A DNA stretch of 64,000 nucleotides, taken from contig WTGB01000097.1 of the NCBI GenBank assembly GCA_011523735.1, positions 1 through 64,000 on the forward strand, in the 5' to 3' direction. Positions 1,374 through 31,117 of the stretch are shown here, piece by piece. A model generated the notes under the pieces. It made no database searches and was not told where the DNA came from. It was given only the letters and a program-made list of their open reading frames with translations. This DNA comes from Chloroflexota bacterium. GTDB taxonomy: Bacteria; Chloroflexota; Anaerolineae; Aggregatilineales; Phototrophicaceae. Each line of letters opens with the position of its first letter. The first letter of the stretch is position 1. Position numbers and translations under genes: made by a program.

Positions 1374-1439
1374 GCACGCGTAGGTCGCGTAGGTCGCGTA
1401 GACACTGACCGCCGACACTGACTGCCGACACAGCGCATC
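1374..1439 (+). repeat. Triple nest of the 22-bp mini-element (locus B)
   Basis: Three units are nested like dolls. The outer unit is split into 1374-1382 (GCAC GCGTA) and 1427-1439 (GACAC A GCGC ATC). The middle unit is split into 1383-1391 (GGTC GCGTA) and 1414-1426 (GACAC T GACT GCC). The innermost unit is whole at 1392-1413 (arms GGTC/GACC, core GCGTAGACAC, tail GCC). Each totals 22 nt, 66 in all, and each inner unit lies between GCGTA and GACAC of its host. Deleting all 66 bases leaves CTCTCCCACAATGAGAGAG, a clean hairpin (CTCTC 1360-1364 with GAGAG 1440-1444). Confidence 0.8.
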
Positions 1440-1506
1440 GAGAGGGGGAGCTATGCCGGACAGTTATTGTCGGCGCTAAGAATGGTGATTTGCGGGCGAC
1501 TCACAG

Positions 1507-1528
1507 GGGCGCGTAGACACAGCCCGTC
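1507..1528 (+). repeat. Single 22-bp mini-element (locus C)
   Basis: One unit with arms GGGC/GCCC, core GCGTAGACAC, spacer A and tail GTC. It sits in the loop of the palindrome GCGGGCGACTCACAG / AGTCGCCCCTAC (1492-1506 and 1529-1540). The palindrome at 3910-3936 has the same arms directly joined, with no unit, and is followed by the same TTTCGCTGAGTTG context. It therefore serves as an empty-site comparison that fixes the insert at 22 bp. Confidence 0.8.
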
Positions 1529-1540
1529 AGTCGCCCCTAC

Positions 1541-1655
1541 GAATTTCGCTGAGTTGAGGCAAGAAGAATTGGCGATTTCTCGCCAAATTGGAACTGAAAG
1601 TGGCTTACAGAACACAGTTTTGAAAGGTGTCCTCTCCTGAGATCCACAATGGGCG
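1541..1655. repeat. Dispersed composite repeat R1, copy 2
   Basis: This copy is very close to copy 1 from GTTGAGGCAAGAAGAATTGG through TTTTGAAAGGTGTCC. Here the internal hairpin is perfect (TTGGCGA, TTTC, TCGCCAA). Upstream it is joined by GAATTTCGCTGA to the palindrome carrying mini-element C, as in copy 3, so palindrome plus R1 behave as one composite unit. Confidence 0.75.
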
Positions 1656-1704
1656 CGCGTCTGCGCTATAATTCGCCGAGGAATGACCAACTCGGAGTGA
1701 ATCA

Positions 1705-2676
1705 ATGAGCGAACACAAAGTATTTGTTACGCGGCAACTTCCGCCCGCGACATTGGAACGGTTGTCAGCCCACTGCGACCTGGAGGTCTGGGAGGACTTC
1801 ATGCCGCCGCCTTACGAGGTCATCCTCGAGAAAGTTAGCCAACTCAGCGGCCTGGTCTGCTTACTCACTGACCGAATCGACGCGCGACTTATGGATGCGG
1901 GACCGAGCCTGAAAGTGATCAGCAATATGGCGGTGGGTTTCGACAACATTGACGTTGCTGCCGCCAGCGCAAGGGGCATTCCGGTCGGAAATACACCCGA
2001 TGTTCTCACGGAGACCACTGCTGACTTCGCCTTCGCCCTGCTTATGGCAGTCGCCCGGCGGATCCCGGAAGCGAAGCAATATATTCACGAGGGCAAGTGG
2101 CGCACATGGCATCCCACCGTCTTGTCAGGGCAAGACATCTATGGCGCGACCTTGGGCATCGTAGGGTTCGGGCGCATTGGCCGAGCGCTGTCACGGCGCG
2201 CGTCCGGATTCAACATGCGTGTATTGGTCGACACGCTTGAGCCGGAAGCCGAGGTAAGCGAAGCTGGCGGAGAAAAAGTGCGCTTAGATGAGTTGCTTCG
2301 CGAGAGTGATTACGTCAGTTTGCATGTTCCGCTAACGGAGGACACAAAACATCTGATCAGCAAGGATGAATTGGCCGCCATGAAACCGACCGCTGTCCTA
2401 GTCAATACAGCGCGCGGCGGCGTGGTCGATCCAGCGGCACTATACGAAGCGCTTCGCGATGGGGTGATATTGGCGGCTGGTCTGGATGTCACCGAGCCTG
2501 AACCGATCGCGCCTGATGATCCGCTGCTGACGCTAGACAACTGCCTGGTTATGCCGCATATTGCCAGCGCAAGCGTCGCAACCCGCAGAAAAATGGCGGA
2601 GATGGCTGTCGACAATGTAATCGCAGGCTTGCGCGGGGAGCCGCTGCCGACCTGCGTGAATCCCGAGGTCCGCTGA
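1705..2676 (+). CDS. D-2-hydroxyacid dehydrogenase (glyoxylate/hydroxypyruvate reductase type)
   Basis: NAD(P)H-dependent reductase of 2-keto acids such as glyoxylate or hydroxypyruvate, cytosolic. At 323 residues the length is normal for the family. The nucleotide-binding loop GFGRIG is at about 155-160. The catalytic triad is visible as Arg in NTARGGVVD (near 235), Glu in DVTEPEP (near 264) and His in MPHIASAS (near 283). The ATG at 1705 has a CGGAGTGA ribosome-binding site. It stands alone between repeat-rich regions. A link to the glycine/serine genes at 21-30 kb is possible through glyoxylate, but the exact substrate cannot be read from sequence (phosphoglycerate dehydrogenase is less likely, as there is no ACT domain). 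Confidence 0.9.
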
Positions 2677-3120
2677 CTCTAGGGAGCAATCGCGTCAGTC
2701 TGGACTGGGCCAGACACTGTGAGCAGCGTCAGATAAGGGTGTGGTAAACATCGAGGATACAATCCCTATAGCGAACACTGCACAGGTCTTTTAACCACAG
2801 CCGCTCAGCGGCAGCGAAAAGAATCAACCGCGCTCACACAAAATAACCAGCCCTCTGCTTGCACGGGCAAGGGGGTTTGTTAAAAAAGAGGACACATAAG
2901 TAAAACCAAGTTAGTCATGCGAAAAAGTGGTCTGTAGCGGGTGACGCAGGCGGGCGACACAAGTGTCGCCCCTACAATACCTTCGATGTTTTCTCCGCCT
3001 CCTTACTTTGCCATATATTCTCATTACTTATTTGGAGCTACTGAGGGCACAGAGTATTTCATGTCCGCCTAAGGAAATTATCATGTAGCCGGAATTTATC
3101 ACTCCCCAGAAAAGAGCTAT
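2677..3120. other. Long intergenic region with a palindromic repeat
   Basis: No gene or RNA gene was recognised. A perfect hairpin at 2952-2971 (GGGCGACAC AA GTGTCGCCC) followed by CTACA belongs to the palindrome family seen throughout the window. A TTGGAGCTACTGAGGGCACAGAG stretch near 3040 echoes the 'cacagagagcacagagag' style repeat at 25845, here interrupted. The remainder shows nothing I can support. Confidence 0.55.
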
Positions 3121-3149
3121 TTGATTTTCCGGCGAAAATCTAATATAAT
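3121..3149 (+). promoter_or_regulatory. Sigma-70-type promoter for greA
   Basis: TTGATT (3121-3126), a 17-bp spacer and a perfect TATAAT (3144-3149). The predicted transcript start is near 3156, giving a leader of about 145 nt before the greA ATG at 3302. Confidence 0.7.
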
Positions 3150-3152
3150 GCG

Positions 3153-3230
3153 CGCATAAGCAATCAAACGAGTGCAAGGGCGCGTCCTGTCCAGTGGGCA
3201 GGGCGTTTCGTCTACTATGCTGCTTATGCG
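3153..3230 (+). ncRNA. Candidate structured 5' leader of greA
   Basis: A perfect 10-bp inverted repeat, CGCATAAGCA (3153-3162) and TGCTTATGCG (3221-3230), would pair the 5' end of the transcript with a site 60 nt downstream. Inside lies a second hairpin, CCTGTCC AGT GGGCAGG, extended by GCG/CGT pairing. The outer stem begins almost exactly at the predicted transcript start. It matches no riboswitch class that I recognise. The structure is seen in the sequence; any regulatory role is inference. Confidence 0.45.
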
Positions 3231-3301
3231 AACATTGCCGCTGAAACGTTTATTGTGAGCCGCCGTATATGCGGATGATTGCGACAGGAAAGGGATATAC
3301 C

Positions 3302-3790
3302 ATGGCAGAACGACGCATTCTCCTGACTCGTCAGGGCTATCACAAGTTGCAGCGCGAGCTCAACATACTCACCAGTGTGGAGAATTCCAAAGTTGCCGAG
3401 ATGCTCGCCGAAGCGCGAGAAGACGACCAAGGTGAAGAGGCAGTTTTCTTCGACGCGATGGTCTCCAAAGAGCGGCTTGATGAGCGCGTCTCGCACCTGC
3501 AGAATGTATTGGCTCGCGCCGAAATCATCGATGCGGATGAGGATCCAAATACAATCACGCCGGGCAACCGCGTGACTGTCTATGACAGCGCCGAAAAAGA
3601 AGAGTTCATGATGGACTTGCTGGATAGCGAAGAGATCACACATGGGCGCCGCGGCGTTTCGCTGGATTCGCCGGTGGGCAAAGCGCTGCTTGGCAAGCAA
3701 GTTGGAGACCGCGTCAAGGTAGAAGTGCCGGATGGCTTGGTCACATACAAAGTGCGAAAGATCGAGATGATTCCGGACGAGGGCGCCTGA
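3302..3790 (+). CDS. greA: Transcription elongation factor GreA
   Basis: GreA rescues backtracked RNA polymerase by stimulating transcript cleavage in the secondary channel. The protein is 162 residues, the usual length. An N-terminal coiled coil (about 1-75) ends in acidic residues (EAREDDQGEEAVFFDA) at the tip. The C-terminal FKBP-like domain has the hallmark SPVGKALLGKQVGDRV. I chose ATG 3302, preceded by AGGAAAGGG at optimal distance, over the in-frame upstream ATG at 3269. The gene has its own strong promoter and a long structured leader. A T-rich run follows the stop, and repeat copy 3 provides a better terminator at 4029-4064. Confidence 0.93.
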   Translation: MAERRILLTRQGYHKLQRELNILTSVENSKVAEMLAEAREDDQGEEAVFFDAMVSKERLDERVSHLQNVLARAEIIDADEDPNTITPGNRVTVYDSAEKEEFMMDLLDSEEITHGRRGVSLDSPVGKALLGKQVGDRVKVEVPDGLVTYKVRKIEMIPDEGA

Positions 3791-3909
3791 CACCCTTTTT
3801 TGACCCCATCCCCCCGCTCCTCGCCATCTCTATGGCGAGCATCCCGAATCATCCTGAGGAGGGGAGATGTTTGCTGGATATGTTTTGCCGGAGGCGAAAA
3901 TCATAATTT

Positions 3910-3936
3910 GCGGGCGACTCACAGAGTCGCCCCTAC
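3910..3936. repeat. Unoccupied palindrome (empty site for the mini-element)
   Basis: GCGGGCGACTCACAG joined directly to AGTCGCCCCTAC. It is the same palindrome as at 1492-1540 but without the 22-bp unit, and it is followed by the same TTTCGCTGAGTTG sequence. Confidence 0.75.
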
Positions 3937-4064
3937 AGATTTCGCTGAGTTGCGACAGCAAAATCTGGCGATTTCCTGCCATATTGAATCTGAAAGTCAG
4001 CATTCAGATCACAAGATTTGAAAGGTGTCCCCTCCTCAGCGAATCTTCGGGGAAGGGGTTTTTT
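3937..4064. repeat. Dispersed composite repeat R1, copy 3
   Basis: A more diverged copy: TTTCGCTGAGTTGCGACAGC, CTGGCGATTTCCTGCCA in place of the perfect hairpin, then GAAAGTCAGC, CAGATCACAAG and TTTGAAAGGTGTCCCCTCCTCAGCG. It fills most of the 335-bp gap between greA and the anti-sigma gene. The rest of that gap (3791-3909 and 4065-4125) shows no gene. Confidence 0.65.
4029..4064 (+). terminator. Rho-independent terminator formed by repeat copy 3
   Basis: CCCCTCC (4029-4035) pairs with GGAAGGGG (4051-4058) apart from one bulged A, followed directly by TTTTTT (4059-4064). The orientation suits greA, so a dispersed repeat appears to serve as its terminator. Confidence 0.55.
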
Positions 4065-4125
4065 CTAGCGGAGTTGTTTTTCGCATGACTATTTGGATTT
4101 ACTGTCGAGGATTGGGCGGGAGATG

Positions 4126-4689
4126 TCATTCTATTTCGGAAAGCTCGTCGAGATAATCCAGAACTGTTGAGAGCATATAAGGCGTCAGAGCGAGGGTGGC
4201 GGCCGCGACCTCCGGTTCGCTGCGAGCGAGATTCTCAGCATCTTCCAACAACTGGATCAAGGCGTTGGTCACCAGTGACATCCAGCCGATGGTCTCAATC
4301 ACCACATCGCTAAACAATTCGGGATCGCGCCTGGCATTGAGCACGAGCCAGGAGGCCGCTTCCATCATGGGCATCATGGCGATCATGGCAGCGGACAGGC
4401 TTAACATCATCACACGCTGCATTTCCGGCGACAAGTCAGAGTTTTCCGTTTCGGCTTGCACCCGCTGCGCGACCCGCGCCATGATGGTCGCGGCCAGCCT
4501 TGCCGGCGCGCGTTGATGGGGGGCCCGTTTCAGCAGCGCGTCTATACGCCGCAAGCGTCCGAATTCTTGAGCGGCGGCCTGGTCATTCCCGAGCATATCC
4601 ACCAGCTTCTTCGCCATCTCTTCGGAGAGCTGTCCATCGATTGCCTCTTGCATCATTTCCTGCTGCGGCAGGCTTTGCTCATCGGACAT
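4126..4689 (-). CDS. Putative anti-sigma factor (zinc-less), partner of the ECF sigma
   Basis: 187 residues. The N-terminal ~75 residues resemble an anti-sigma domain (EAIDGQLSEEMAKKLVDMLG, then a helix RLRRIDALLKRAP and LAATIMARV). There is no cysteine at all, so the HxxxCxxC zinc motif of many anti-sigma factors is missing. A Met-rich hydrophobic stretch (about 90-115) could be a membrane segment, which would place the C-terminal half outside the cytoplasm or in the membrane. The ATG lies 1 bp after the sigma gene's stop, suggesting translational coupling. The assignment rests on this position plus the N-terminal pattern; the signal sensed is unknown. Confidence 0.65.
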   Translation of the reverse strand: MSDEQSLPQQEMMQEAIDGQLSEEMAKKLVDMLGNDQAAAQEFGRLRRIDALLKRAPHQRAPARLAATIMARVAQRVQAETENSDLSPEMQRVMMLSLSAAMIAMMPMMEAASWLVLNARRDPELFSDVVIETIGWMSLVTNALIQLLEDAENLARSEPEVAAATLALTPYMLSTVLDYLDELSEIE

Positions 4690-4690
4690 C

Positions 4691-5311
4691 TCAATTTCCT
4701 TTCGGCAGGGTGTCGGCCAGCCGGCTGTCGCTATCGTGATTGGGGCTGTCGAGCAGCTCTGCCAGTCGCTTGCGCGCTCGATGCAGGCGGCTCTTGATCG
4801 CGCTTTCGGTTGTGCCCATTTCCCGCGCGATTTCGGCGTAGGAATATGCGTACCAATAGCGATAGATCACCGCCAGGCGATAGTGTTCATCAAGCTGCTG
4901 CAGAAGTTCCTGAATAGCATCGCTCAATTCAACTTTCAGCGCCACCTGTTCGGGACTGGGATCGCTGCTGCGCAGAGCCAGCGCGGCCGCCGTCGGTTCG
5001 TCATCGAGGGAGACATATTGCATGCGGCGTTTCCGCAAGCGATCTATACAATGATTGGAGGCGATTGAAAGCAGCCAGGTCTTGAATGAGCGCGCAGTAT
5101 CGTAACGATGCAGGTTTTTATGCACACGCAGAAATGTCTCCTGAGAGGCGTCTTCCGCCTCGCCGCTTTCGCCCAACATGCGGTAACAGAAGTTGAAGAC
5201 CGGGTCTTGAAACAAATAGACGAGTTCAGCGAATGCGTCTTGATCGCCTCGTCTTGCGCGCATGACCCAGTCAACGATGACGCGGTCTTCTTCTGCCAAG
5301 GTTTTCCTCAT
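4691..5311 (-). CDS. ECF-family RNA polymerase sigma factor
   Basis: 206 residues. Region 2 (about 24-95) contains the core-binding and -10 recognition pattern (FAELVYLFQDPVFNFCYRML, then DASQETFLRVHKNLHRYD and FKTWLLSIASNHCIDRLRKR). Region 4 (about 135-190) has YRYWYAYSYAEIAREMGTTESAIKSRLHRARKRL, the helix-turn-helix that reads the -35 box. It forms a two-gene operon with the anti-sigma gene. Upstream on the same strand a GGAAACC (5345-5351) could be the -35 of an autoregulated ECF promoter, but its spacing to the start codon would leave almost no leader, so I do not call it. Confidence 0.92.
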   Translation of the reverse strand: MRKTLAEEDRVIVDWVMRARRGDQDAFAELVYLFQDPVFNFCYRMLGESGEAEDASQETFLRVHKNLHRYDTARSFKTWLLSIASNHCIDRLRKRRMQYVSLDDEPTAAALALRSSDPSPEQVALKVELSDAIQELLQQLDEHYRLAVIYRYWYAYSYAEIAREMGTTESAIKSRLHRARKRLAELLDSPNHDSDSRLADTLPKGN

Positions 5312-5434
5312 TCAACGAGTGCTAAGTCATCGGGCAATTCTAACGGTTTCCGGAGCACAATAGATGCGCCTACAGCAATTATGGGCTGTGATGAACCAGC
5401 GCAAAAGGAAGAAACGCGTAAGAAAGACGACAGC

Positions 5435-5812
5435 TTAGGCGCTTAGCAACAGTACCGCAGTTGCGACATTGGTCGCCAGCGGCACATTGTGCACATTGCA
5501 GATACGCAGCAGGCCCTGTATATCCGGATCATGTGGATGCTTTCCCAGCGGGTCGAGAAAGAAAATGACGGCTCTGATCCGCCCTTCCGCCACCATCGCC
5601 GCAATCTGCGCATCGCCACCGTAGGGTCCGGAAAGCAGGCGCCTCACGGCCAATCCGGTCTTGTCCTCGATCAGCTTGCCCGTCGTATTTGTCGCAACCA
5701 GGTCGAAGGAGCTCAGGCGTTCGTAGTGGTCTTTGACAAAGGCTATCATATCAGCCTTCTTGCCGTCATGAGAGATAAGCGCCAATGTGCGTTTCGCAAC
5801 TGTCTCGGTCAT
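5435..5812 (-). CDS. mgsA: Methylglyoxal synthase
   Basis: Converts dihydroxyacetone phosphate to methylglyoxal and phosphate, a bypass of lower glycolysis when phosphate is low. It is recognised by LALISHDGKKADMIAFV near the N-terminus, the phosphate-binding NTTGKLIEDKTGL, SGPYGGDAQIAAMV and FFLDPLGKHPHDPDIQGLLRICNVHNVPLATN. The HxxDxxxLLRxCN stretch is diagnostic. I prefer the ATG at 5812 (125 residues) to a TTG at 5839; family members begin close to this point. It appears to be a single gene. Confidence 0.93.
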   Translation of the reverse strand: MTETVAKRTLALISHDGKKADMIAFVKDHYERLSSFDLVATNTTGKLIEDKTGLAVRRLLSGPYGGDAQIAAMVAEGRIRAVIFFLDPLGKHPHDPDIQGLLRICNVHNVPLATNVATAVLLLSA

Positions 5813-5931
5813 CGGTCTTCTGTTCCTAATCTGGCGCAAGAGTTCAGTTCTTTAATGCAATCGGACCAGGTTCCCGCCTTAATCCTGCGCGTCGGCGTCA
5901 TTGCAACGCGGTCCTTTCAAAGCAGGCATCA

Positions 5932-7260
5932 CTATGTAATTGACAGGTTGCGCGGACGGCGAACAAGCCGAGCAGGAATCGACAGCGGGCGGTGATAATT
6001 CGTGAAACCGAACAGACTCTTGAAGCGCTGATTCATCGTGTAGGCTTCTTCGTAATAGAGTTCGAGTTGCGCCATCAGGGCGGACCAGGGACGCCTCTCC
6101 GCCAGGCTGCGGGCTCCATGGCTCAATTGGAGACGGATATCTGGATGATCGCGCAAGTATCTGATCGCGTCGGCAAAGGCGCTTTCAGTCGGCTCGACGA
6201 CAATACCGCTGACGCCGTGCTTGATCACATCAGGCGCGCCACCGGCGTTTACCACAACTGTCGGCAAACCGGATGCCATCGCTTCCAACATGACCTGTCC
6301 AAAGGTCTCGGAGGCGCCCGGGAAGACAAATACATCAGCGCTGGCATAGGCTTGAGCCAGCTCGTCGCCGATCAAGTATCCGGTAAAATACGTATCAGTG
6401 CCGGCGAAGACCTGCTCGAGTTCCTCGCGCAAGGCGCCATCGCCAATAATCGTGAGGGCGATCCCGGGCGAACGCGCTATCTCCAGCAGCAAATCTATTC
6501 GTTTCTCATTCGCCAGGCGTCCGACGAAGATGCAAAGCAGCGATTCCGGATCGCGGTCGTTAAGCAGACGCCGACGCATGGCCGCGCGAGCGTGACAAGG
6601 ATTGAAACGTTCGGTATTGACGCCTCTGCCCCAATGCCGGACGCGGCGGTAGCCAACCTCGCGCAATTGGCGGATGATGGTTTGCGTCGGCGCGAGGGTC
6701 AGGTGACAGCCGTTATGAATATAGCGCAGCCAGCGATTGACCGGTCCGGAAAGCAAGGGAAAACCATAGTGTTCGGTATAGCCGGGGAGATCGGTCTGAT
6801 AATTCGCGATCACAGCCAGATTGAGATGGCGACCGACAGCCATGCCATTAACGGACATCGCCGCCGGACTAAACAGATGGATCAGGTCCGGTTGGAAGTC
6901 TTCGATATGGCGAGCAACTATCGGGTTCGGCAGCGCCATTCTTGTTTCCGGGGCTTGGGGCAAGCCGATAGAAGGCAAGGGTATGACCTTCGAATCGCCA
7001 ACATTGTCGATGGCGATATCTGGGGCGAAGACCAGCACTTCGCGCCCGGTCTCTTGCAGATAGCGTATGGTGAGGTATGAGGTCTTGACGACGCCGTCCA
7101 CTTTGGGCAAGAAAGATTCGGTCAAAATGGCGACCTTTCTCACCGCCGCGAAGGGCGTCACCGTATATTTGTCGTCCTGCAAGCGCGGGTTGCCGAAGAA
7201 TTCGTCGAGGTTCTTCTCTTGCTGAGCTTGAAGATTGTCGAGTAATCGCTGCGTTTGCAT
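5932..7260 (-). CDS. GT4-family glycosyltransferase
   Basis: Retaining glycosyltransferase with a GT-B fold. The N-terminal domain begins VAILTESFLPKVDGVVKTSYLTIRYL, typical of the mannosyl- and sulfoquinovosyl-transferase branch. The C-terminal domain shows the nucleotide-sugar site (FVGRLANEKRIDLLLEIA, FTGYLIGDELAQAYASADVFVFPGASETFGQVMLEAMASGLPTVV) with the E-x7-E motif. About 442 residues from the ATG at 7260; a TTG two codons upstream is also open. It probably builds a glycolipid at the inner face of the membrane (mannosyl-lipid or sulfolipid type). The sugar cannot be deduced, and the neighbours do not narrow it. Confidence 0.87.
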   Translation of the reverse strand: MQTQRLLDNLQAQQEKNLDEFFGNPRLQDDKYTVTPFAAVRKVAILTESFLPKVDGVVKTSYLTIRYLQETGREVLVFAPDIAIDNVGDSKVIPLPSIGLPQAPETRMALPNPIVARHIEDFQPDLIHLFSPAAMSVNGMAVGRHLNLAVIANYQTDLPGYTEHYGFPLLSGPVNRWLRYIHNGCHLTLAPTQTIIRQLREVGYRRVRHWGRGVNTERFNPCHARAAMRRRLLNDRDPESLLCIFVGRLANEKRIDLLLEIARSPGIALTIIGDGALREELEQVFAGTDTYFTGYLIGDELAQAYASADVFVFPGASETFGQVMLEAMASGLPTVVVNAGGAPDVIKHGVSGIVVEPTESAFADAIRYLRDHPDIRLQLSHGARSLAERRPWSALMAQLELYYEEAYTMNQRFKSLFGFTNYHRPLSIPARLVRRPRNLSIT

Positions 7261-7435
7261 GACCAACCTGCTTCGCGAAATCAGCCCTCAAAAGCAGTTT
7301 ATCACATCCTGCCTAATCGAATGATTCAATAAGCCTACCTGTAATAACACCTGAGCGCCGCGGAGGATTTGCCAGACGGGCTCTATCTTTACTGTACGGG
7401 AATCAGGCTGCGATGTTCCGCGCCGCCGCGGATCG

Positions 7436-9898: not shown

Positions 9899-9956
9899 CG
9901 CGTTTAGTCCGTCGTGTGGCAAGGCTTCATCATCGTACGAAGGCGCCACAGGCTTG

Positions 9957-10445
9957 TCAAGCAAGGTCATCCGCCTTCTCATTCGGGGGACTTAGCTCAC
10001 CAGCGAGCCAGGGGATGCCATAGCCGACGACCAGATGACCAGCCTCAGCCAGCGCTTTGCCAAGCGAATCCGTATCGCGATAGGTCCACCAATGGTCAGC
10101 GGACCGCAAGATGTTCACGCCGAAATCGGCGACAACAAGCTGGCTCAAGCTGCGCGACACACTTCCAGCAGTACCGGTTAGTCCAGATGTCGTAGGCGAA
10201 CGTGTGAGTTGCACGCGAAACCGCGATGGCGCCCCGGCCGACCACATGGTGTCGCTGTATACCAGCACTTGAAAATCGATCCAGCCGAAGCTGCCATCGT
10301 CAAATGCTTTGACGAAGCGGAAGCGCCCTCCAACTGATTGCAAAGGCGCCTCAGCAAAATGGTAGCCGGCGGCCGCAAATGCCTGCCCAACGACGGTACG
10401 GAGCAAGGTACGAAAGTAGTCCTGACCGGCTTGACGTTCCTGCAT
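9957..10445 (-). CDS. Conserved-looking protein of unknown function
   Basis: I do not recognise this 162-residue protein. It starts MQERQAGQDYFRTLLRTVVG, with AFAAAGYHFAEAPLQSVGGRF and a segment FVKAFDDGSFGWIDFQVLVY that looks like alternating strands, then a Ser/Thr-rich middle and WWTYRDTDSLGKALAEAGHLVVGYGIPWLAG near the end. It has no signal peptide or membrane segment. The ATG has AGGAATTAG upstream. Codon use resembles the neighbours. It lies between yyaL and the transglycosylase on the same strand with gaps of 42 and 58 bp, so the three may be cotranscribed. Confidence 0.7.
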   Translation of the reverse strand: MQERQAGQDYFRTLLRTVVGQAFAAAGYHFAEAPLQSVGGRFRFVKAFDDGSFGWIDFQVLVYSDTMWSAGAPSRFRVQLTRSPTTSGLTGTAGSVSRSLSQLVVADFGVNILRSADHWWTYRDTDSLGKALAEAGHLVVGYGIPWLAGELSPPNEKADDLA

Positions 10446-14951: not shown

Positions 14952-14961
14952 ATTAGAAGAT

Positions 14962-24400: not shown

Positions 24401-24605
24401 CACGAGCTGCAATATCGATTCGGAGGGCTATCAAGTCGGGCAGGCGCTATTGGAGAAACCATCGCGCAAGCCGGGCACAAAGCTATCGATATTCGCTGGT
24501 TCCGCCCGCGCGAAAGCCACTGATTTCGGCGACCTTTCGCTGACACAGCGCATCAGATTGCCGGAGCCGGCGACTGTGCTAACGCGCTTTCCGCGGCGCA
24601 AATGA
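21462..24605 (+). CDS. glyA-gcvT: Serine hydroxymethyltransferase-aminomethyltransferase fusion (GlyA-GcvT)
   Basis: 1,047 residues joining two enzymes of folate one-carbon metabolism. Residues ~1-430 are SHMT (serine + THF to glycine + methylene-THF): IPSESTAPLAVRDAL, YKGTEYANILE, GGHLTHGSPVNRSGKYYN, and the PLP lysine in FTTHKTFNGPRGA near 267. Residues ~645-1047 are the glycine cleavage T protein: AKMAPFAGYDMPLWY, FDVAHMGVFDLQG, SRTGYTGERVAYELF and GLAARDSLRTEAGLPLYG. Between them ~200 residues (GYPHFYHLDADAGESCLEISV, then VPGPVAVRVLGEG) form an unrecognised, probably beta-rich domain. No frame break is seen. The gene is far from and opposite to gcvH-PA-PB. Channelling of methylene-THF between active sites is an inference. 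Confidence 0.92.
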   Translation: MSNNDYLFRGGIDELDPDVAELIRHETARQQAKLIMIPSESTAPLAVRDALSSAFHNIYAEGYPLDNSRRMTQAEILDYAQRLPEFRRNADQRYYKGTEYANILESLARRRAAEIFAGNGCGAEDLYVNVQPLSGAPANNAAYTALLNIGDTVMGMDLIMGGHLTHGSPVNRSGKYYNIVSYGIDPASEKLDYERMRELALEHRPRLIIGGFSSYPFAADWKAYREIADEVGAYLLADVAHVAGLIAAGVYPNPVGIADVVSFTTHKTFNGPRGAVLITHRRDLSAKLDRAVFPGEQGGPHINTMAGLAVALRLAATEQFRELQSQTLANAKDLAQKLSARGFRLPYGGTDTHLLLLDCKSITGADGTALSGDMAARILDLAGIVVNRQTIPGDTSALRPSGLRLGTTWLTQRGITAADIDALGDIIADVLEACRPFSLTGRVRPLARAKVDFDALQAAGRRAQELAMRLGIDTDATEDGYPHFYHLDADAGESCLEISVSGAAAGDFLHIALTSDIVALQDSESQPTHVLEKDGAAMASGSVTRISATEFRLNIAGRAERAVAWLRSLSDGFAHFDDADMQAKVPGPVAVRVLGEGEPQMLAGTAGYDRKAYHIGMNGPNYYAQPVAALPKFEPDVAAVDMLQETPLHSLHLELGAKMAPFAGYDMPLWYRSVSDEHAAVRTGAGIFDVAHMGVFDLQGAGAENFLDLVSTNDVKRLKVGSSHYTYFLDTEGIPLDDLMIYRLAEERFLLVVNASNNDKNWQWLNALIDGAVMIDPDMPSRRIEGVDGFQLRDLRLPQWGGEQRVDIALQGPESRAALLQLEGSEADKAAVKRLRWAGVAQVTLGGFDLIVSRTGYTGERVAYELFAHPDEAAALFRALVELGVTPCGLAARDSLRTEAGLPLYGLELAGDLNLNPADAGFGAYVKLYKPFFVGKSAFSAHEAERKHQVSRFRLDNKGARPARYGDPVLNARGRVVGKVTSCNIDSEGYQVGQALLEKPSRKPGTKLSIFAGSARAKATDFGDLSLTQRIRLPEPATVLTRFPRRK

Positions 24606-24609
24606 GGCG

Positions 24610-25698
24610 CTAGCCGGTTTCGTTGCGCCCGATAAGCTCAGTGATGAGATCGTGATGGGCGAATAGCACCAGCGTGTCCCCGCCGCGCACGCTGACGTCT
24701 CCGCGCGGATGTACATCGGGCGAATCAAATTCCGGGCGATGGAGCAAGACGATATCGACGCCTTCGCTCTCCTGTATGTCGCCGACGGTTTGGTCCGCCA
24801 GGAAGGAGCCATGGCGGACGATCAGGCGGATCATGCTGTATTCCAAGCCCGCAACATGCAGGTTCTGCGTGATCTCCGCGCCGACCGCCGCGCCCGCGAA
24901 AGCCGGCGCCGCCAGGTCCGATGCGCTCAATACCTCAACATCAAAGAAGCGCTCCATCTGCTGGGCTAATCGTCGATCCCACATGCGCGTCACCAGGCGG
25001 ATTTTGGGATTCATGTCGCGAACGCGCATCGTCACTTCGAGGTTGACGTGGTCATTCGATGTGGCGACAACAACCGCCGTCGCCCGGCGAAGGCCCGCCG
25101 ATTCCAGCACCGTGACCAGGCGCCCGTCGCCCGTGATCAGCGGCACATCCACCTCGTGCAGCCTTTCCTGCGCTTCTTTGTCCGCGCCCACATCAACCGC
25201 CACCACCTCGAAACCCATCTGCGTGAGCTCCCGGACAATGCGAATCCCGGTATGCCCGATGCCGACCACGATGATATGCCGCTTGTATGTTGATGCCACC
25301 GCCACCCCCCAGGCACTGCGCCTCTGCTCGCGATCGATAAAGAGCCGCAGGAAATCGGCGGCGCCCCGCCCCACAACGTAAACCGCCAGCAGCGGCATGA
25401 TATACCAGAACACAATCAAGTGCGGCTCAGTCGGCACTTCAATTGATGCTTCCAGCACCATCAACGCCAGCATAATGTAGGGCATGTCGACATAATTCAG
25501 CGGCGTGTTATCGGAATGGTTATTGTTCAGCTGCATGTAAACGTAGCCGCCGATGAAGACGGCGACAAAGAATATGAGCAGCGGACGCCGAAATTCCCGT
25601 ATCAAGGCGCGGGTATCGTGCCAGCCGACGCGGAGTATGCGTATGCGCCGGGATTGCTTTCGCAGCGAAACCGTCTCAACCAGTTTGTAGCTCGACAC
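24610..25698 (-). CDS. RCK/TrkA-domain membrane protein (ion-channel-like, no K+ filter)
   Basis: 362 residues. A basic N-terminus is followed by a hydrophobic helix (RPLLIFFVAVFIGGYVYM, ~38-55), a pore-like region (YVDMPYIMLALMVLEASIEVP) and a second helix (FWYIMPLLAVYVVGRGAADF). The layout matches two-helix potassium channels, but the TxGYG selectivity filter is absent. A TrkA-N domain follows (HIIVVGIGHTGIRIVRELTQMGFEVVAVD, NAD-binding GxGxxG), then a TrkA-C domain (SMIRLIVRHGSFLADQTVGDIQ to GDTLVLFA). Start GTG 25698 with GGATGGAG upstream. Its stop is 4 bp from that of glyA-gcvT (convergent). It may conduct another ion or act as a nucleotide sensor. Confidence 0.8.
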   Translation of the reverse strand: MSSYKLVETVSLRKQSRRIRILRVGWHDTRALIREFRRPLLIFFVAVFIGGYVYMQLNNNHSDNTPLNYVDMPYIMLALMVLEASIEVPTEPHLIVFWYIMPLLAVYVVGRGAADFLRLFIDREQRRSAWGVAVASTYKRHIIVVGIGHTGIRIVRELTQMGFEVVAVDVGADKEAQERLHEVDVPLITGDGRLVTVLESAGLRRATAVVVATSNDHVNLEVTMRVRDMNPKIRLVTRMWDRRLAQQMERFFDVEVLSASDLAAPAFAGAAVGAEITQNLHVAGLEYSMIRLIVRHGSFLADQTVGDIQESEGVDIVLLHRPEFDSPDVHPRGDVSVRGGDTLVLFAHHDLITELIGRNETG

Positions 25699-25970
25699 AG
25701 CGACTCCATCCTTTGGGGCGCGGGGATTATAACGAGTCCGCGGAAGTTATAAAAGTGAAATAATCGAACTGGTGGCTGTTTCTGTGGTGATCTAAGTAAG
25801 CGCAAGTAAGTCATGCAACAAAAACTAACTACAGAGAACGCAGAGAGCACAGAGAGAGCCCATTTAGATAATTCCATTCGCGGGCGTTTCAGCGCTGCGC
25901 GTAGACACAGCAGACCAACGCCCCTCCAATTCGCAAAATAGAAAGATTTCAATTACTTAGTTGGAACTAC
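25699..25970. other. Intergenic region with palindromic repeat and mini-element
   Basis: Holds an 'acagagaacgcagagagcacagagaga' type repeat (near 25830-25858) and a palindrome (25882-25923) whose loop carries mini-element D. No gene is seen. Confidence 0.6.
25895..25916 (+). repeat. Single 22-bp mini-element (locus D)
   Basis: Arms CTGC/GCAG, core GCGTAGACAC, spacer A, tail ACC. Removing the 22 bases leaves GGGCGTTTCAGCGAACGCCC, a hairpin with a perfect GGGCGTT/AACGCCC stem, close to the unoccupied hairpin at 324-344. Confidence 0.75.
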
Positions 25971-26894
25971 TTAGATGATGTCGTTCTGCAGCAAATAGAT
26001 GATCACAGACAGTGTAAACGGGCTGATAAGGGTTGTCGTCATGATCAGACTGAGAGCCAGGTCCTTATCGGTATCGAACTCATAGGCGAGTATGATCGTC
26101 AGCACGGCGGTGGGCATACCCGCTTGCAGAATGAAAGCTAAGCGCGCGGCGCCATCCAAGCTGAACAGCGATGCGACAGCGACACCGATTAACGGCGCTA
26201 AGAGCAAGCGGATCGCCGTGCCGGATAGCAGGAGCCGCCAACGATCGGGCTTGCGAAAGCCACCCAACTGCAAACCCAGCAGCACCAGCATCAATGGGAT
26301 AGAAGCGTCGGCAAGCAGCTGTGATGTGCGGCTTAAGGCCGGCGGCAATTCCATTATGCCGGCCGCCTTTAGCGCAAAAGCCGCGACAAGCGCATATACA
26401 ACCGGCGTGCGCAGAACGCTCTGAAATGATTTCAGCATTGATGCTTTGCCGCTCGAGGAAACGTAGGGACCCAGCGTCCAAGCTACAGTGGAGCCGGCGA
26501 TGTAAATGATCACTGCATAAGTCAGCGCTTCGGCGCCAAAGGCAAAGCTGACAATTGAAATGCCGAAGTTGGCGCCATTAAAGACGAAAGTAGAGACTAG
26601 AGTAGTGGCGCGTTCGCCCGGACTGATCTTCTGCCAGCGGAAAAAAACCAGGGAGAAGGCTAAGATGGCAGCAAGAAGCGCAAGGGTAGCGAAATAGACA
26701 CGCAGAAAATCGCCGCCGCTGATGTCCCGCGTGTACAGGGCGTTGAACGCCAGCGCGGGAGAAAAGACGTGGAACATCATGCGCGAGATCATCGCCGGGC
26801 TGGTATCGAAACGCTTGCGTAAGTAGAAGCCGACGCCGGCGATCGCCAGCACGGGGATCATGTTGTCGATGAAGATGTTGAGCAGGTCGAGCAC
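25971..26894 (-). CDS. AEC-family (auxin efflux carrier-like) transporter
   Basis: 307 residues with about ten hydrophobic segments in two repeats of five. The start LLNIFIDNMIPVLAIAGVGFYLRKR and the mid-protein FVFNGANFGISIVSFAFG (the conserved Asn-rich unwound helix) are typical of the family, as is MLVLLGLQLGG. Bacterial members export or import small carboxylates and similar anions; the substrate is not known here. GTG start at 26894. Position next to the glycine cleavage genes is suggestive but not proof of a link. It is probably transcribed separately, since a repeat-filled gap of 188 bp separates it from gcvPB. Confidence 0.86.
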   Translation of the reverse strand: MLDLLNIFIDNMIPVLAIAGVGFYLRKRFDTSPAMISRMMFHVFSPALAFNALYTRDISGGDFLRVYFATLALLAAILAFSLVFFRWQKISPGERATTLVSTFVFNGANFGISIVSFAFGAEALTYAVIIYIAGSTVAWTLGPYVSSSGKASMLKSFQSVLRTPVVYALVAAFALKAAGIMELPPALSRTSQLLADASIPLMLVLLGLQLGGFRKPDRWRLLLSGTAIRLLLAPLIGVAVASLFSLDGAARLAFILQAGMPTAVLTIILAYEFDTDKDLALSLIMTTTLISPFTLSVIIYLLQNDII

Positions 26895-26956
26895 AGGGCA
26901 ACTCAGATCGTCTGCGGGGTCAGTCGAGCGCCGATGATAATTGGAGCAATGCGAGC

Positions 26957-27033
26957 CGTGTAGGGGCGACTTATCAAGTTGCCCGAGTTTGCAGAGGTTG
27001 TCCGCGGGCGATCAATTTAGTCGTCCCTACACG
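26957..27033. repeat. Two-armed palindromic repeat
   Basis: TGTAGGGGCGACTTATCAAG and, inverted, TTTAGTCGTCCCTACACG flank a centre with a second inverted pair (GCCCG near 26981 and CGGGC near 27007). It is the same family as the 'gcgggcgac...gtcgcccctac' palindromes but larger. It fills the gap between gcvPB and the AEC gene. Confidence 0.55.
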
Positions 27034-27082
27034 TTTTGCGCAGCCCGCGACGACCGGGGCGGTTTCGTGAAGCGGCCGAAAC

Positions 27083-28615
27083 CTATCTTACTGATGCGGG
27101 CAAAGCAGGCGCGCAGCAGAGTACCAGCTCCTTCGCCGCGCGGACTTCATCCAAGCGGCGGACGGGCGCGGTGTGCGGCGCAGTGAGCAGGGTCTCCGGC
27201 TCCGTCCGCGCTTCCTCGGCGATCTGCTCCATTGCCTGGACGAAGGCGTCGAGATCCTCCTTAACTTCGGTCTCGGTCGGCTCGATCAGCAGGGCTTCAG
27301 GCACGATCAGCGGGAAATAATTCGTCGGCGGGTGGAAGCCGTAGTCCATCAGCCGCTTCGATATATCCAGAGCGTGCACCTCGTCGACGCCGTCGATATG
27401 CCCTTCCAGCACAAATTCGTGCCCGCAGTAGCGCGGGTAAGGCACATTATAGGCGCGCATCAGCCTGGCGCGCAGGTAGTTGGCGTTGAGCACGGCGTAG
27501 CGCGTCACATCGCGGATGCCGCTGTCGCCGTAAACGCGGATATAAGCATAAGCGCGGAGGTGCATGCCGAAGTTGCCGTGGAAGGCTTTCATGCGCCCGA
27601 TGCTCTTTTCCGGCATGACGAAGCCGTAGAGGGGCGGTTCTTCGGGTTTACCCCCTCCTAAATCCCCCTCCATTGCAACAGGTGGGGGGTGGTCAACAAT
27701 CTCAACGATAGGTCCCGGCAGGTAGGGGGCCAGCTTGTCGTTGACGCCGACCGCGCCGCTACCTGGTCCGCCGCCGCCGTGGGGTGTGGAGAAGGTCTTG
27801 TGCAAGTTGTAATGCATGACATCGAAGCCGAGCTCGCCTGGCTTGACCACGCCCATCAGCGCGTTCATATTGGCGCCGTCCATATACATCAAGCCGCCGG
27901 CGTCGTGCACAGTTTCGATGACCTCGAGGATGGTCGATTCGAACAAGCCGAGGGTGCTGGGCACGGTGATCATCATGCCGGCGATGCGGTCACGCAGGTC
28001 GCCTTCGCAGGCAGCGTGCAGCGCGCGCATATCGACATTGCCCTGCGCGTCGGCTGGCAGTTCGCGCACTTCCATGCCAGCCATGGTCACGGTAGCCGGG
28101 TTGGTGCCGTGGGCGCTGTTTGGCACGAGGATGATATCGCGCTGACCCTCGCCGCGGTCGCTGTGATACTGGCGGATCATCAAGATGCCGGCGAATTCGC
28201 CCTGGGCGCCGGCCGCCGGACTCAGGCTGACCGCCGCGAAACCGCTGATCTCGCCGAGCCAGCGCTGCAATTCGTGCATGAGGAAGAGCGCTCCCTGCGC
28301 GCCCGATTCGTCTGTCAGCGGGTGCAACTGGGCGAAGCCGGGCAGACGGGCCGCGTCTTCGTTGAGCTTGGGGTTGTATTTCATGGTGCAGGAGCCCAGG
28401 GGATACAGGCCCTGGTCGATGGAATAATTGAGTTGGCTCAGCTTGACGAAGTGGCGCACCACCTGCACCTCGCCAACTTCCGGCAGGGGCAGATCGTCGC
28501 GCATCAGTGCAGCCGGCAAGGGCGACTCCGGCACATCGCATTCGGGCAGATTGACGCCGCTGCGTCCTGGCGCGCCGATATCGTAGATCAGTGGTTGCAG
28601 TTGCGGGTTTGCCAT
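27083..28615 (-). CDS. gcvPB: Glycine dehydrogenase (decarboxylating) subunit 2
   Basis: PLP-dependent half of the P protein, which decarboxylates glycine and passes the aminomethyl group to GcvH. 510 residues. The PLP lysine is in YNLHKTFSTPHGGGGPG, near residue 270. GSCTMKYNPK and GAQGEFAGILMIRQYH are conserved. About 16-18 extra residues (near 306-324, PPPVAMEGDLGGGKPEEP) sit before KSIGRMKAFHGNFG. They are encoded by a sequence that looks like a dispersed intergenic repeat (27645-27690). The ATG overlaps the gcvPA stop by one base (TAATG), so translation is coupled. Third gene of the riboswitch-controlled operon. Confidence 0.94.
   Translation of the reverse strand: MANPQLQPLIYDIGAPGRSGVNLPECDVPESPLPAALMRDDLPLPEVGEVQVVRHFVKLSQLNYSIDQGLYPLGSCTMKYNPKLNEDAARLPGFAQLHPLTDESGAQGALFLMHELQRWLGEISGFAAVSLSPAAGAQGEFAGILMIRQYHSDRGEGQRDIILVPNSAHGTNPATVTMAGMEVRELPADAQGNVDMRALHAACEGDLRDRIAGMMITVPSTLGLFESTILEVIETVHDAGGLMYMDGANMNALMGVVKPGELGFDVMHYNLHKTFSTPHGGGGPGSGAVGVNDKLAPYLPGPIVEIVDHPPPVAMEGDLGGGKPEEPPLYGFVMPEKSIGRMKAFHGNFGMHLRAYAYIRVYGDSGIRDVTRYAVLNANYLRARLMRAYNVPYPRYCGHEFVLEGHIDGVDEVHALDISKRLMDYGFHPPTNYFPLIVPEALLIEPTETEVKEDLDAFVQAMEQIAEEARTEPETLLTAPHTAPVRRLDEVRAAKELVLCCAPALPASVR
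27645..27690. repeat. Dispersed repeat absorbed in frame within gcvPB
   Basis: CCCCCTCCTAAATCCCCC, a short spacer and GGTGGGGGGTGG. G/C-run palindromes of this sort are usually intergenic in such genomes. Here it lies within the reading frame and encodes the extra loop of GcvPB. That it is an insertion is inferred from the family's shorter loop. Confidence 0.5.
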
Positions 28616-29949
28616 TAGCCCAGCCCTCCCAAGACTTCAACAAGGCGGTCGATTTCGTCTTTGCCGTTCGTCTCCGTCACGCAGAGCAGCATGTGGTCCT
28701 GCAAATGGAAATAATGCGGACCCAGGTCGTAGCCGCCGATGATGCCTTCCGCGAGCAGCGCGTCGTTGATTTCAGCGACCGGGCGCGGGCAGGCGATGAC
28801 GAATTCATTGAAGAAAGACTTGCTCATATCGACGCTGTAACCGTCGAGCCGGTTGATCCGCTCGGCGGCGTAATGCGCCTTGTGGTAGTTGAGTTCGCCG
28901 ACCTGGCGCAAGCCGTTTTTGCCCATCAGCGCCATGTAGACCGAGGCAGCCAGCGCCATCAAGCCCTGGTTGGTGCAGATATTGCTGGTGGCGCGCTCCC
29001 GTTTGATATCCTGCTCGCGCGGGCGCAGGGTCATGACGAAGGCGCGCTTGCCATCGGCATCGCGGGTCTCGCCGATAATGCGGCCCGCAATGCGACGCAC
29101 ATACTTTTGCCGAATGGCGAAATAGCCCAGGTAGGGTCCGCCGAAGCCGAGCGGGACGCCCATAGGCTGTCCCTCGCCGACGACGATATCGGCGCCCAGC
29201 TCGCCCGGGCTCTTGAAAAGTGAGAGCGCCATCGGGTTCGCCACGATGACCAACAGCGCGCCGGAGCCATGCACTGCTTCGGCGACGGTTGCCAAGTCAT
29301 CAATCTGGCCGAAAAAGTTGGGATATTGCAGGGCGAGCATGGCGGTGTTGTCGTCCAGCATTTCCAGCAGATCGACGATTTCGCCGCGACCGCGATCGCC
29401 GATGATGCGAATATCGCGCCCTTGGTGGTATGCCCGGACGACCTCGCGGTATTGCGGGTGGATGGCGTGGCTGAGAATGACCTTTTTGCGTTTGTGGCGC
29501 GCTACTTCGAGGGCGACGGTGACGGCTTCGGCGAGGCTGGTGGCGCCGTCGTAATGGCTGGCGTTGGCGGCATCCATGCCGGTCAGCGCGCACATCATAC
29601 TCTGATATTCATAGGTCGCTTGCAGCGTGCCCTGCGAGATCTCCGGCTGATAGGGCGTGTAGGCGGTGTAGAATTCGCCGCGCAGCAGGATGTGGTTGAC
29701 GACCGAGGGGATGAAATGATGATAGGCGCCGGCGCCGCGGAAGATGGCAAAGTCCTGGCCATGGTCGTTCGCCTCGCTGATGGCGAGCATCTCGGCGGCG
29801 ACTTCCATCTCGCTCATTGGCGGCGGCAGGTCCAGCGGCGGGAAGCGGTGGGATTGCGGCACGGCTTGAAAGAGTTCGTCGATCGATCTCACGCCGATCT
29901 CGGTCAGCATGGACCTCGTTTCGGCCGGTGTATGCGGTATGTAGCTCAC
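28615..29949 (-). CDS. gcvPA: Glycine dehydrogenase (decarboxylating) subunit 1
   Basis: Partner of GcvPB; together they form the heterotetrameric P protein of the glycine cleavage system. 444 residues, the usual length. Recognised by YIPHTPAETRSMLTEIGV at the N-terminus, FRGAGAYHHFIPSVVNHIL, FYTAYTPYQPEISQGTLQ, MDAANASHYDGATSLAEAV and SNICTNQGLMALAASVYMALMG. GTG start at 29949 with GAGAGG about 12 bases upstream. It lies 49 bp after gcvH and overlaps gcvPB by one base. Confidence 0.96.
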   Translation of the reverse strand: MSYIPHTPAETRSMLTEIGVRSIDELFQAVPQSHRFPPLDLPPPMSEMEVAAEMLAISEANDHGQDFAIFRGAGAYHHFIPSVVNHILLRGEFYTAYTPYQPEISQGTLQATYEYQSMMCALTGMDAANASHYDGATSLAEAVTVALEVARHKRKKVILSHAIHPQYREVVRAYHQGRDIRIIGDRGRGEIVDLLEMLDDNTAMLALQYPNFFGQIDDLATVAEAVHGSGALLVIVANPMALSLFKSPGELGADIVVGEGQPMGVPLGFGGPYLGYFAIRQKYVRRIAGRIIGETRDADGKRAFVMTLRPREQDIKRERATSNICTNQGLMALAASVYMALMGKNGLRQVGELNYHKAHYAAERINRLDGYSVDMSKSFFNEFVIACPRPVAEINDALLAEGIIGGYDLGPHYFHLQDHMLLCVTETNGKDEIDRLVEVLGGLG

Positions 29950-29998
29950 GTCAGTTTATGCCTCTCGTCAGGATATGCGGAAGTGGAAGGCGAGTCTC

Positions 29999-30391
29999 TC
30001 AGCGGCTGTCGCAATAGGCGTCATAGGCGGCGGCGTCCATCAGCGCGTCCAAGCCCGTGAGATCGGAGGCGCGGATCTTGACCATCCAGCCGGCGCCAAA
30101 GGGATCGGCATTGACTGTCTCCGGCTCATCCTCCAAAGCCGAATTTACTTCAATGATTTCGCCGGGCACGACGCTGTACAGCTCGGCAGCGGCTTTGACC
30201 GATTCGACTTCGCCAAAGGAGTCGCCGGCATCGAGGGCGTCGCCAGGGTCTCTGAATTCAACATAGACGATATCGTTGAGCTGGTCTTGCGCGTAGTCGG
30301 TGATGCCAATGGTGACAAGGTCGCCAGCAAGCGCGAACCACTCGTCCGATTCGGAATACTTCAAATTTGCGGGTACCTTCCATTCGCCCAT
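29999..30391 (-). CDS. gcvH: Glycine cleavage system H protein
   Basis: Small carrier whose lipoyl arm moves the aminomethyl group from P to T and to the L protein. 130 residues. The lipoylated Lys66 lies in FGEVESVKAAAELYSVVPG, and the C-terminal PFGAGWMVKI is conserved. ATG 30391 has AAAAAAGGAG upstream. First gene of the operon gcvH-gcvPA-gcvPB, controlled by the glycine riboswitch 100 bp upstream. The T protein is fused to GlyA elsewhere in the window; no L protein (dihydrolipoamide dehydrogenase) is seen here. Confidence 0.96.
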   Translation of the reverse strand: MGEWKVPANLKYSESDEWFALAGDLVTIGITDYAQDQLNDIVYVEFRDPGDALDAGDSFGEVESVKAAAELYSVVPGEIIEVNSALEDEPETVNADPFGAGWMVKIRASDLTGLDALMDAAAYDAYCDSR

Positions 30392-30412
30392 GTGTAACTC
30401 CTTTTTTGAGTA

Positions 30413-30451
30413 TTAAACAAAACGAGCGCACCTCATGCCGAGAATGCGCCC
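30413..30451 (-). terminator. Riboswitch-controlled terminator
   Basis: GGGCGCA and TGCGCTC (one G-T pair) form the base of a hairpin with an inner CTC/GAG, followed by GTTTTGTTT. It lies between the glycine aptamer and gcvH, the position expected for an expression platform. Confidence 0.65.
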
Positions 30452-30483
30452 TGTCGGTTGGTGTGACCTTCAGAGAATCCTGC

Positions 30484-30575
30484 CCCAAGGATCCTTTTGC
30501 CTGAGAGTTTCACGCAAGTTGGCTTACTTGTCGCTTGCCCCTTCGGCGTTTCGCGCGATGGCGAAATCTCTCTCC
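30484..30575 (-). ncRNA. Glycine riboswitch (single aptamer visible)
   Basis: On the minus strand the conserved elements appear in order: GGAGAGA, then GCGAAACGCCGAAGGGGCAA, then GTGAAACTCTCAGGCAAAAG and GA. This is the glycine aptamer consensus. Only one full aptamer is seen; the stretch after it (CAGGATTCTCTGAAGG) does not repeat the consensus. It is followed by a terminator hairpin and gcvH, so glycine would be expected to turn the operon on by preventing termination. Confidence 0.93.
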
Positions 30576-30588
30576 TTGCGGCAATTTC

Positions 30589-30617
30589 ATTGTAGCGGCT
30601 TTGTCGTATGTCCGCAA
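30589..30617 (-). promoter_or_regulatory. Promoter of the gcvH-gcvPA-gcvPB operon
   Basis: On the minus strand, TTGCGG (30612-30617), a 17-bp spacer and TACAAT (30589-30594). It lies just upstream of the riboswitch, with the predicted transcript start about 7 nt before the aptamer. Confidence 0.7.
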
Positions 30618-31117
30618 CGACTTGGGTGTCTATAAGAGTGGTGAATTAAGAGGATAGAATCCCGCCTGTCCAGAGAATCTGATGCGGGCGACCCAAGGGT
30701 CGCCCCTACAAGGCTTGATTGTTATTATCGAAAAATGCGTGGTTTTCTACCCCTCACCCCCAGCCCCCTCTCCCACAAGGGGTGCGCGTAGGTCGCGTAG
30801 ACACCGACCGCCGACACAGCACTTCGAGAGAGGGTGCCCCTGTGTGCGAAACAGAATGGAATTTGTGATCTTGCCTCATTTCTGTTGGGTCTCATGCAGA
30901 ATATTTCCGCATGTTTCGCGCTGATTTTGCAATACCAATCAAGCCTTACATTTATTATTTCATGAGTCAGGATTATTTGTTGCCATGTCCCAATTTTGAC
31001 CATTCCCACGATTTGGCCGTCTATCCCGCCGCCAGGTATCGCGCTTTGCGCCTGTATGTGTGTGCTTGAACTTGATATCATCAGAACAGTGCTGGCAGCG
31101 CAATCTGGCAAAACGCA
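30618..31117. other. Intergenic repeat region
   Basis: About 500 bp without a gene. It holds a perfect palindrome at 30686-30705 (GGGCGACCC AA GGGTCGCCC, then CTACA), and the 'ccctcacccccagccccctctcccacaagggg' repeat (from about 30749) carrying a two-unit mini-element nest. Nothing is recognised from 30845 to 31117 other than the start region of the SCO1 gene. Confidence 0.6.
30782..30825 (+). repeat. Double nest of the 22-bp mini-element (locus A)
   Basis: The outer unit is split into 30782-30790 (GTGC GCGTA) and 30813-30825 (GACAC A GCAC TTC). The inner unit is whole at 30791-30812 (arms GGTC/GACC, core GCGTAGACAC, spacer C, tail GCC). Removing all 44 bases restores CTCTCCCACAAGGGGAGAGA, the standard form of this common palindrome. 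Confidence 0.8.

Follow-up and report, generated by a model that had tools for sequence, protein, structure and literature searches.

A nested 22-nucleotide hairpin repeat in a genus of Chloroflexota: a probable mobile element found in palindrome loops and within itself

The window considered here is the whole 64,000-nt stretch from positions 1 to 64,000 of contig WTGB01000097.1 (assembly GCA_011523735.1), from a Chloroflexota bacterium of the Phototrophicaceae, and it contains seven copies of a short repeated unit, all read on the forward strand. Each unit is 22 nt long and follows a single plan: a 4-nt arm (NNNC), the core GCGTAGACAC, one base, a complementary 4-nt arm (GNNN), and a 3-nt tail. 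The copies lie at 1374–1439 (three units, nested), 1507–1528, 25895–25916, and 30782–30825 (two units, nested), as an earlier note on this DNA had reported. Within the triple nest, the outer unit occupies 1374–1382 and 1427–1439, the middle unit 1383–1391 and 1414–1426, and the inner unit 1392–1413; once peeled, the locus leaves CCCACAATGA^GAGAGGGGGAGC. The double nest consists of an outer unit at 30782–30790 and 30813–30825 around an inner unit at 30791–30812, in the host sequence CCCTCTCCCACAAGGG^GAGAGAGGG. The inner unit sits exactly between the GCGTA and GACAC of its outer unit (9 nt to the left and 13 nt to the right) in both nests, giving loci of 66 and 44 bp, and this part of the note stands unchanged. 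Its account of arm pairing needs small corrections in the triple nest, in which the outer arms (GCAC/GCGC) contain one A–C mismatch and the middle arms (GGTC/GACT) one G–T pair.

The other two units are single. The unit at 1507–1528 (GGGC GCGTAGACAC A GCCC GTC) lies within a palindrome of the repetitive extragenic palindrome (REP) type, the 5′ stem GGGCGACT and loop CACAG of which occupy 1494–1506 and the 3′ stem AGTCGCCC and CTAC end of which occupy 1529–1540; this host ends in GTAG on one strand, and such palindromes also occur empty, with a loop of 5 nt. The unit at 25895–25916 (CTGC GCGTAGACAC A GCAG ACC) lies in the palindrome GGGCGTTTCAGCG^AACGCCC. Taken alone, the window does not contain the core more often than chance would allow (five matches with at most one mismatch against 2.84 expected, a number reached in 16 of 100 shuffles).

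Searching the whole genome and its relatives, a check that the earlier note had proposed, revealed the core far beyond chance in the genome and above control level in most of the relatives. The window's own genome (G000; a 4.37-Mb assembly in 169 contigs, 95% complete) holds 114 exact copies of the core against 9 for a reversed control, and 27 exact matches to the nested pattern GCGTA-N4-GCGTAGACAC-N8-GACAC against none for the control. Cores exceed the control in 29 of 33 sampled relatives in the genus, albeit only slightly in G003 and G007, with the two highest counts in G016 (282) and G002 (281) and with 244 in G029 and 231 in G005; the exceptions are G023 and G031, with zero cores, and G030 and G033, which fall below the control. 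In 27 genomes of the family and order outside the genus, the core is at control level, and the nested pattern is absent from 399 other genomes of the phylum, the single match in that draw of 400 being G000, its sole member of the genus. At least 114 stretches in genome_contigs carry the nested pattern, and among the matches listed all are titled Chloroflexi, Chloroflexota, or Anaerolineae; pieces from seven of these titled assemblies match genus genomes at 99%–100%. A phage or plasmid origin was rejected, since the nested pattern had no match in viral_contigs and blastn of window positions 1350–1460 returned no plasmid record. Contigs C89, C132, C156, C159, and C166 of G000 start or end within nested arrays; repeats break assembly in this way, and nests are therefore probably undercounted.

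Four Watson–Crick arm pairs are present in 248 of 311 innermost units, where 93 would be expected from arms shuffled among units, and the tail ends in C in 236 of these 248. The perfect arms comprise ten types, led by GGTC (141), GGGC (50), and CCGC (24), with seven rarer; as ten perfect types recur, the idea that arms are copied from the target is unsupported. In an alignment of 71 distinct units, hand-picked from 103 with at least two arm pairs, the arms are 92.6% paired against 62.5% after shuffling, with one of five measures (pairs changed on both sides, 4 versus 3.1) not distinct from the shuffle. The unfiltered control, comprising all 108 distinct units, gave 86.1% paired against 60.4 ± 1.7% shuffled, and 89 cells show change on both sides, where shuffling gave 33.6 and never more than 45. 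The hairpin is thus maintained by compensatory change, a trait of some of the small dispersed repeats (SDRs) compared below. Covarying arms, with a few of the ten pairs predominating, would fit descent from a small number of source lineages that retained the ability to fold. Twelve G000 sites hold a longer, 27-nt variant whose loop has five additional bases, and some of these sites are nested; at L015 (2574) and L008 (1501) of this genome, the variant (right part GACAC CCACTA GGCC GCC) and long-armed CTAGTGGC...CCACTAG forms were observed.

Nesting was assessed by an excision scan of 20 lengths (14–33 nt) and 13 offsets (0–12). With an excision of 22 nt that begins 4 nt upstream of the core, an outer core reappears at 136 of 228 unique sites, a count inflated by relatives' loci having been fetched with the 22-nt nested pattern; every other setting combined restores one site (length 27, offset 4). 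A census of G000 by the core alone collected 112 of the 114 cores, of which 16 at contig edges were omitted. Among the remaining 96 sites, the left and right part counts are (1,1) at 57, (2,2) at 13, (3,3) at 4, and unequal at 22, although a few unequal counts may be due to chance, as one mismatch per part was permitted. Merging identical contexts leaves 89 distinct sites, 68 equal and 21 unequal. Equal part numbers, which the earlier note had treated as the rule, accordingly fail as a law, yet equal arrays of depth two or more (17) outnumber the 6.4 expected if the two sides were independent. Of the 89 (2,2) arrays across all loci, 67 have an inner arm unlike the outer arm, which means that the inner unit did not arise by local copying of the outer. 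When three or more of the four pairs are required, these 67 fit nested pairing alone in 29 cases, crossed pairing alone in 1, both in 28, and neither in 9. A minisatellite or other tandem repeat was rejected, given that the parts run in the order AABB with outer–outer arm pairing rather than as whole copies head to tail. In the relative G012, also sampled by the core alone, single units account for 26 of 30 unique sites, and the other four are nests in which the outer left part has GACATA in place of GCGTA. These four (L300, L310, L283, and L287) carry CCGC GACATA, rather than CCGC GCGTA, around an inner GGTC unit within different flanks, and apparently represent one nested unit multiplied along with its host palindrome.

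When units are peeled away, repeats are left behind, many of them palindromic. The earlier note's picture of nested units holds, but it had missed that the outermost units often occupy the loops of REP-type palindromes. An exact stem of at least 6 bp spans the insertion point at 36 of 85 G000 host sites, against 3.7% for shuffled flanks. Among 58 REP-type hosts with an exact 8-bp stem, drawn from 290 distinct host sites across all loci, the unit lies at the junction between loop and 3′ stem in 55. Palindromes of the form GGGCGxyz-loop-CGCCC have loops of 4/5 nt in 286 strand hits, 26/27 nt in 37, 48/49 nt in 39, and 70/71 nt in 4, with none at 13/14 or 17/18 nt, the lengths that addition of 9 or 13 nt alone would give; a one-part first step is thus not seen. 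Core-holding strand hits fall in the 26/27, 48/49, or 70/71 classes in 36 of 52 cases, and the 16 at other loop lengths include 58 nt (five) and 62 nt (two), which fit 3 × 9 + 2 × 13 and 2 × 9 + 3 × 13 and hence unequal part counts. The claim that lengths are always 22 nt or a multiple of it consequently fails, in view of these loops, the 27-nt variant, and single other lengths. REPs occur without any core in G031 (130 matches) and G023 (25 matches), which shows the unit to be an element separate from the REP. The unit's own loop also contains GTAG, split by self-insertion as GTA^G.

Comparison of orthologous loci between species, also proposed in the earlier note, uncovered exact differences of 22 or 44 nt. 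In a first round, 12 of 30 G012 loci were used as queries against G011, G010, and G006; in a second, 18 nested loci were queried and 16 compared (L112 and L037 were dropped). Six of the 28 focal loci were informative (L301, L303, L305, L061, L095, and L136, with L303 representing two sites). At L303, a GTGC...GTC unit of 22 nt lies between GGGCGACATGATA and TGTCGCCC in G012, where G011 and G006 have 0 nt; in a second palindrome of the same gap, a CTGC unit of 22 nt in G011 is matched by 0 nt in G006. L301 measures 42 nt in G012 and 20 nt in G011. L061 is 51 nt in G032 against 7 nt in G022, with 67 nt of left flank shown identical, and is a complete two-deep nest opposite an empty site. At L095, the lengths are 63 nt (G022) and 18 nt (G008), the difference of 45 between anchors comprising 44 nt plus a 1-nt flank indel. 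Part counts at L136, read from the alignment, are (3,4) in G029, (2,2) in G027, and (3,3) in G002, with 1-nt indels beside the steps. At L305, the site is filled alike in G012 and G011. No target duplication was found at orthologous empty sites, and entire clusters of filled REPs can be present in one ortholog and missing from another. Together, these comparisons indicate precise gain or loss of the element with no duplication of the target; the arrays of different species are set apart by 22-nt steps and also by a 13-nt part. In the first round, no alignable site, or no cluster at all, was present for L282, L286, L292, L293, L296, L298, L299, and L310, and the remaining query, L294, was left out of the alignments; 13 of the 16 loci compared in the second were not alignable at the site. 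The window locus itself is 79%–82% alike in its best relatives, with short intergenic gaps that make it uninformative for 22-nt steps.

No gene able to move the unit had been visible in the window, and three families searched in the genome agree: Y1 transposase, RVT_1, and IS110 transposase have no match in G000, although one gene could be missing from this 95% complete assembly, and all three are patchy in the genus. Y1 transposase matches occur in 15 of 34 genus genomes at E ≤ 0.001, of which 13 are over the cut-off and most are weak. RVT_1 occurs in 7 of 34, including the core-rich G016 and G002 (282 and 281 cores) but also G023 (0 cores), and is absent from G000, G029, and G005 (114, 244, and 231 cores); these domains sit in open frames of about 850–990 aa (L274–L281). 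Y1 and IS110 enzymes were rejected as movers, having no match in G000 and no clear fit with copy number. An element driven by IS200/IS605 or by a REP-associated tyrosine transposase (RAYT) finds no Y1 match in G000, and a miniature inverted-repeat element of a DDE transposon is at odds with arms of only 4 nt and with the lack of target duplication at empty orthologs. A mover enzyme that has been lost or is borrowed is possible, as is an RNA route via RVT_1.

We consider the 22-mer to be a non-autonomous mobile hairpin that is inserted in trans and then edited by slippage, with a probability of roughly 0.72. Insertion of a 22-nt unit into itself at one fixed position, as the earlier note proposed, is well supported by the excision length, the nested arm pairing, and the empty or shorter orthologous sites. 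A trans-acting activity would recognise the folded single strand, as either RNA or DNA, and join the unit into the loops of hairpins; the unit also sits inside its own loop at GCGTA^GACAC, so that nests form. Slippage would afterwards alter arrays one 9-nt or 13-nt part at a time, and we attribute the unequal arrays to it; some copies would arise by multiplication of REPs already carrying a unit.

Several results weigh against this mobile-hairpin explanation. The lone 22-mer is not unusually stable when folded (RNA z −1.15; DNA z −0.12), nor is the triple nest of the window (RNA z 0.84), whereas the empty REP is (z −6.13); the case for the 22-mer hairpin rests on covariation. No exact stem of 6 bp or more exists at 49 of 85 G000 host sites, and within its own 11-nt loop the unit sits after the first 5 nt rather than at the 3′ edge. 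The unit also favours one strand of the REP: in the 58 REP hosts, CTAC stands to the right alone in 37 and GTAG to the left alone in 2, with both in 3 and neither in 16, and this 37:2 bias means that structure alone does not explain targeting. Where a G000 array has multiple parts on at least one side, the two counts disagree in 22 of 39 cases, and none of the 30 core-selected sites in G012 parses as an equal nest. Alignable 22-nt tests were unavailable at 22 of 28 focal ortholog loci. There is no candidate enzyme, yet G016 and G002, with the most cores, have RVT_1, and G002 also has IS110. Finally, self-nested GGTC units have GCC as their tail in 88 of 99 cases, compared with 10 of 38 for other GGTC units. 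Either the tail varies with the target, or a single sub-lineage gives rise to nests, whether through insertion or through conversion by existing nests; the bias could mean that nests spread by being copied from one another.

This tail bias, which makes inner units nearly uniform, is what would be expected if nests spread by short-homology gene conversion. The GCGTA and GACAC common to both would then let an existing nest pass its inner unit on to a simple unit, insertion into new targets being a separate, rarer event. We regard this as unlikely: the end homology is just 5–9 nt, nesting recurs within outer units of many arm types, and the 44-nt nest at L061 stands opposite an empty site with no simple-unit intermediate seen, although such an intermediate may be lost and 5 of the 10 GCC tails outside nests may be decayed self sites. 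Units might alternatively be passengers, with REPs that once held a 22-mer multiplying as filled REPs by means of a REP transposase, and most copies then owing nothing to mobility of the 22-mer. Arm type does track host class (CCGC units in GGGCGTTTCAGCG hosts of G012 and GCGC units in CTCGCCATCTCTA hosts), and whole filled clusters come and go between orthologs; GGTC units, however, occupy many unrelated hosts as well as one another, which breaks any rule of one private unit per host class, REPs are plentiful without units in G031, single REPs in place differ by one unit, and G000 has no Y1 match, all of which makes this account improbable.

Purely local growth, in which slippage during replication of a hairpin multiplies the 9-nt and 13-nt parts and no unit is mobile, would produce the unequal part counts, the loops of 58 and 62 nt, and the extra 13-nt part of one species at L136. 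It is contradicted by the orthologs at 22 versus 0 and 44 versus 0 nt and by the absence of palindromes with only +9 or +13; exact 22-nt single units in unrelated palindromes, inner arms that do not copy outer ones, and the excess of equal arrays argue the same way, and we consider it very unlikely except as a secondary process. Assembly artefacts in short-read metagenome bins have next to no chance of accounting for the structures: repeats do disturb assembly, with 16 of 112 G000 sites at contig edges, but the same structures recur in many separately named assemblies, nests have unique flanks, and the filled site at L305 is common to two species.

Among known systems, the closest resemblance is to the SDRs of Nostoc-type cyanobacteria, which are said to be dispersed units of 21–27 nt, forming hairpins with compensatory changes in some families (SDR4–6). 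SDR1 and SDR4 reportedly often lie within copies of themselves, and SDRs are said to insert into other repeats; recursive self-insertion, suggested by the earlier note as a step beyond the Nostoc repeats, is thus probably not new in kind. To our knowledge, SDRs are confined to a subgroup of cyanobacteria, whereas the present unit belongs to one Chloroflexota genus. It is like them in size (22 nt), high copy number, hairpin with compensatory change, self-nesting, and insertion in other repeats, and differs in its REP-type hosts, its site at the junction of loop and 3′ stem, and its orthologous empty sites of 22 and 44 nt. The unit thus appears to work like an SDR, on the strength of shared traits rather than of sequence likeness to SDR1–8, without being a proven SDR. 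Fixed-point insertion in another repeat, found here in 55 of 58 REP hosts and in the orthologs, has a parallel in SDR5, described in PMC4390886 as inserting exactly between nucleotides 3 and 4 of HIP1.

Insertion sequences carry a transposase gene, and REPINs, which are REP doublets, are far longer than 22 nt. The present unit codes for nothing, makes no target duplication, and is accompanied by no IS110 match in G000. It nonetheless resembles IS1397, IS621, and ISPpu9/10, which insert selectively into REP palindromes, some at one fixed point, according to PMC1525189. REPINs are similarly small, non-autonomous hairpin repeats that spread within a genome, but their hairpins are formed by doublets of REPs (PMC3116915). 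GTAG-ended REPs have been reported from Chloroflexi (PMC3733652), and the window host palindrome ends in GTAG; the 22-mer itself is not a REP, having a 4-bp stem and its GTAG in the loop rather than at the end, and G000 has no Y1 transposase match. Literature searches, limited to open-licence papers, turned up no Chloroflexi counterpart and nothing relevant on nested short hairpin repeats.

It is possible, though we hold the idea only tentatively, that the unit represents an independently evolved class of hairpin-homing micro-element, in which a 22-nt folded strand is joined both into its own loop and into other hairpins at their loop/3′-stem junction, and so continually supplies itself with targets; its home would be a phylum with no relation to cyanobacteria and a genome (G000) lacking a detectable RVT_1, Y1, or IS110 enzyme. 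What would be new relative to the cyanobacterial SDRs is the phylum, the target, and the empty sites. Should SDR-like units have originated in both of these unrelated phyla, hairpin elements of very small size would form a general category of mobile DNA, moved by an activity yet to be discovered. The genus lends itself to study of the process: it provides orthologs that are exactly empty or filled, core counts from 0 to 282 across 33 sampled relatives, one relative rich in target REPs yet devoid of units, and nests that each preserve the order of their insertions.

The only Rfam match in the window at the gathering threshold is a glycine riboswitch at 30479–30585 on the reverse strand (63.1 bits), about 200 nt from the double nest.

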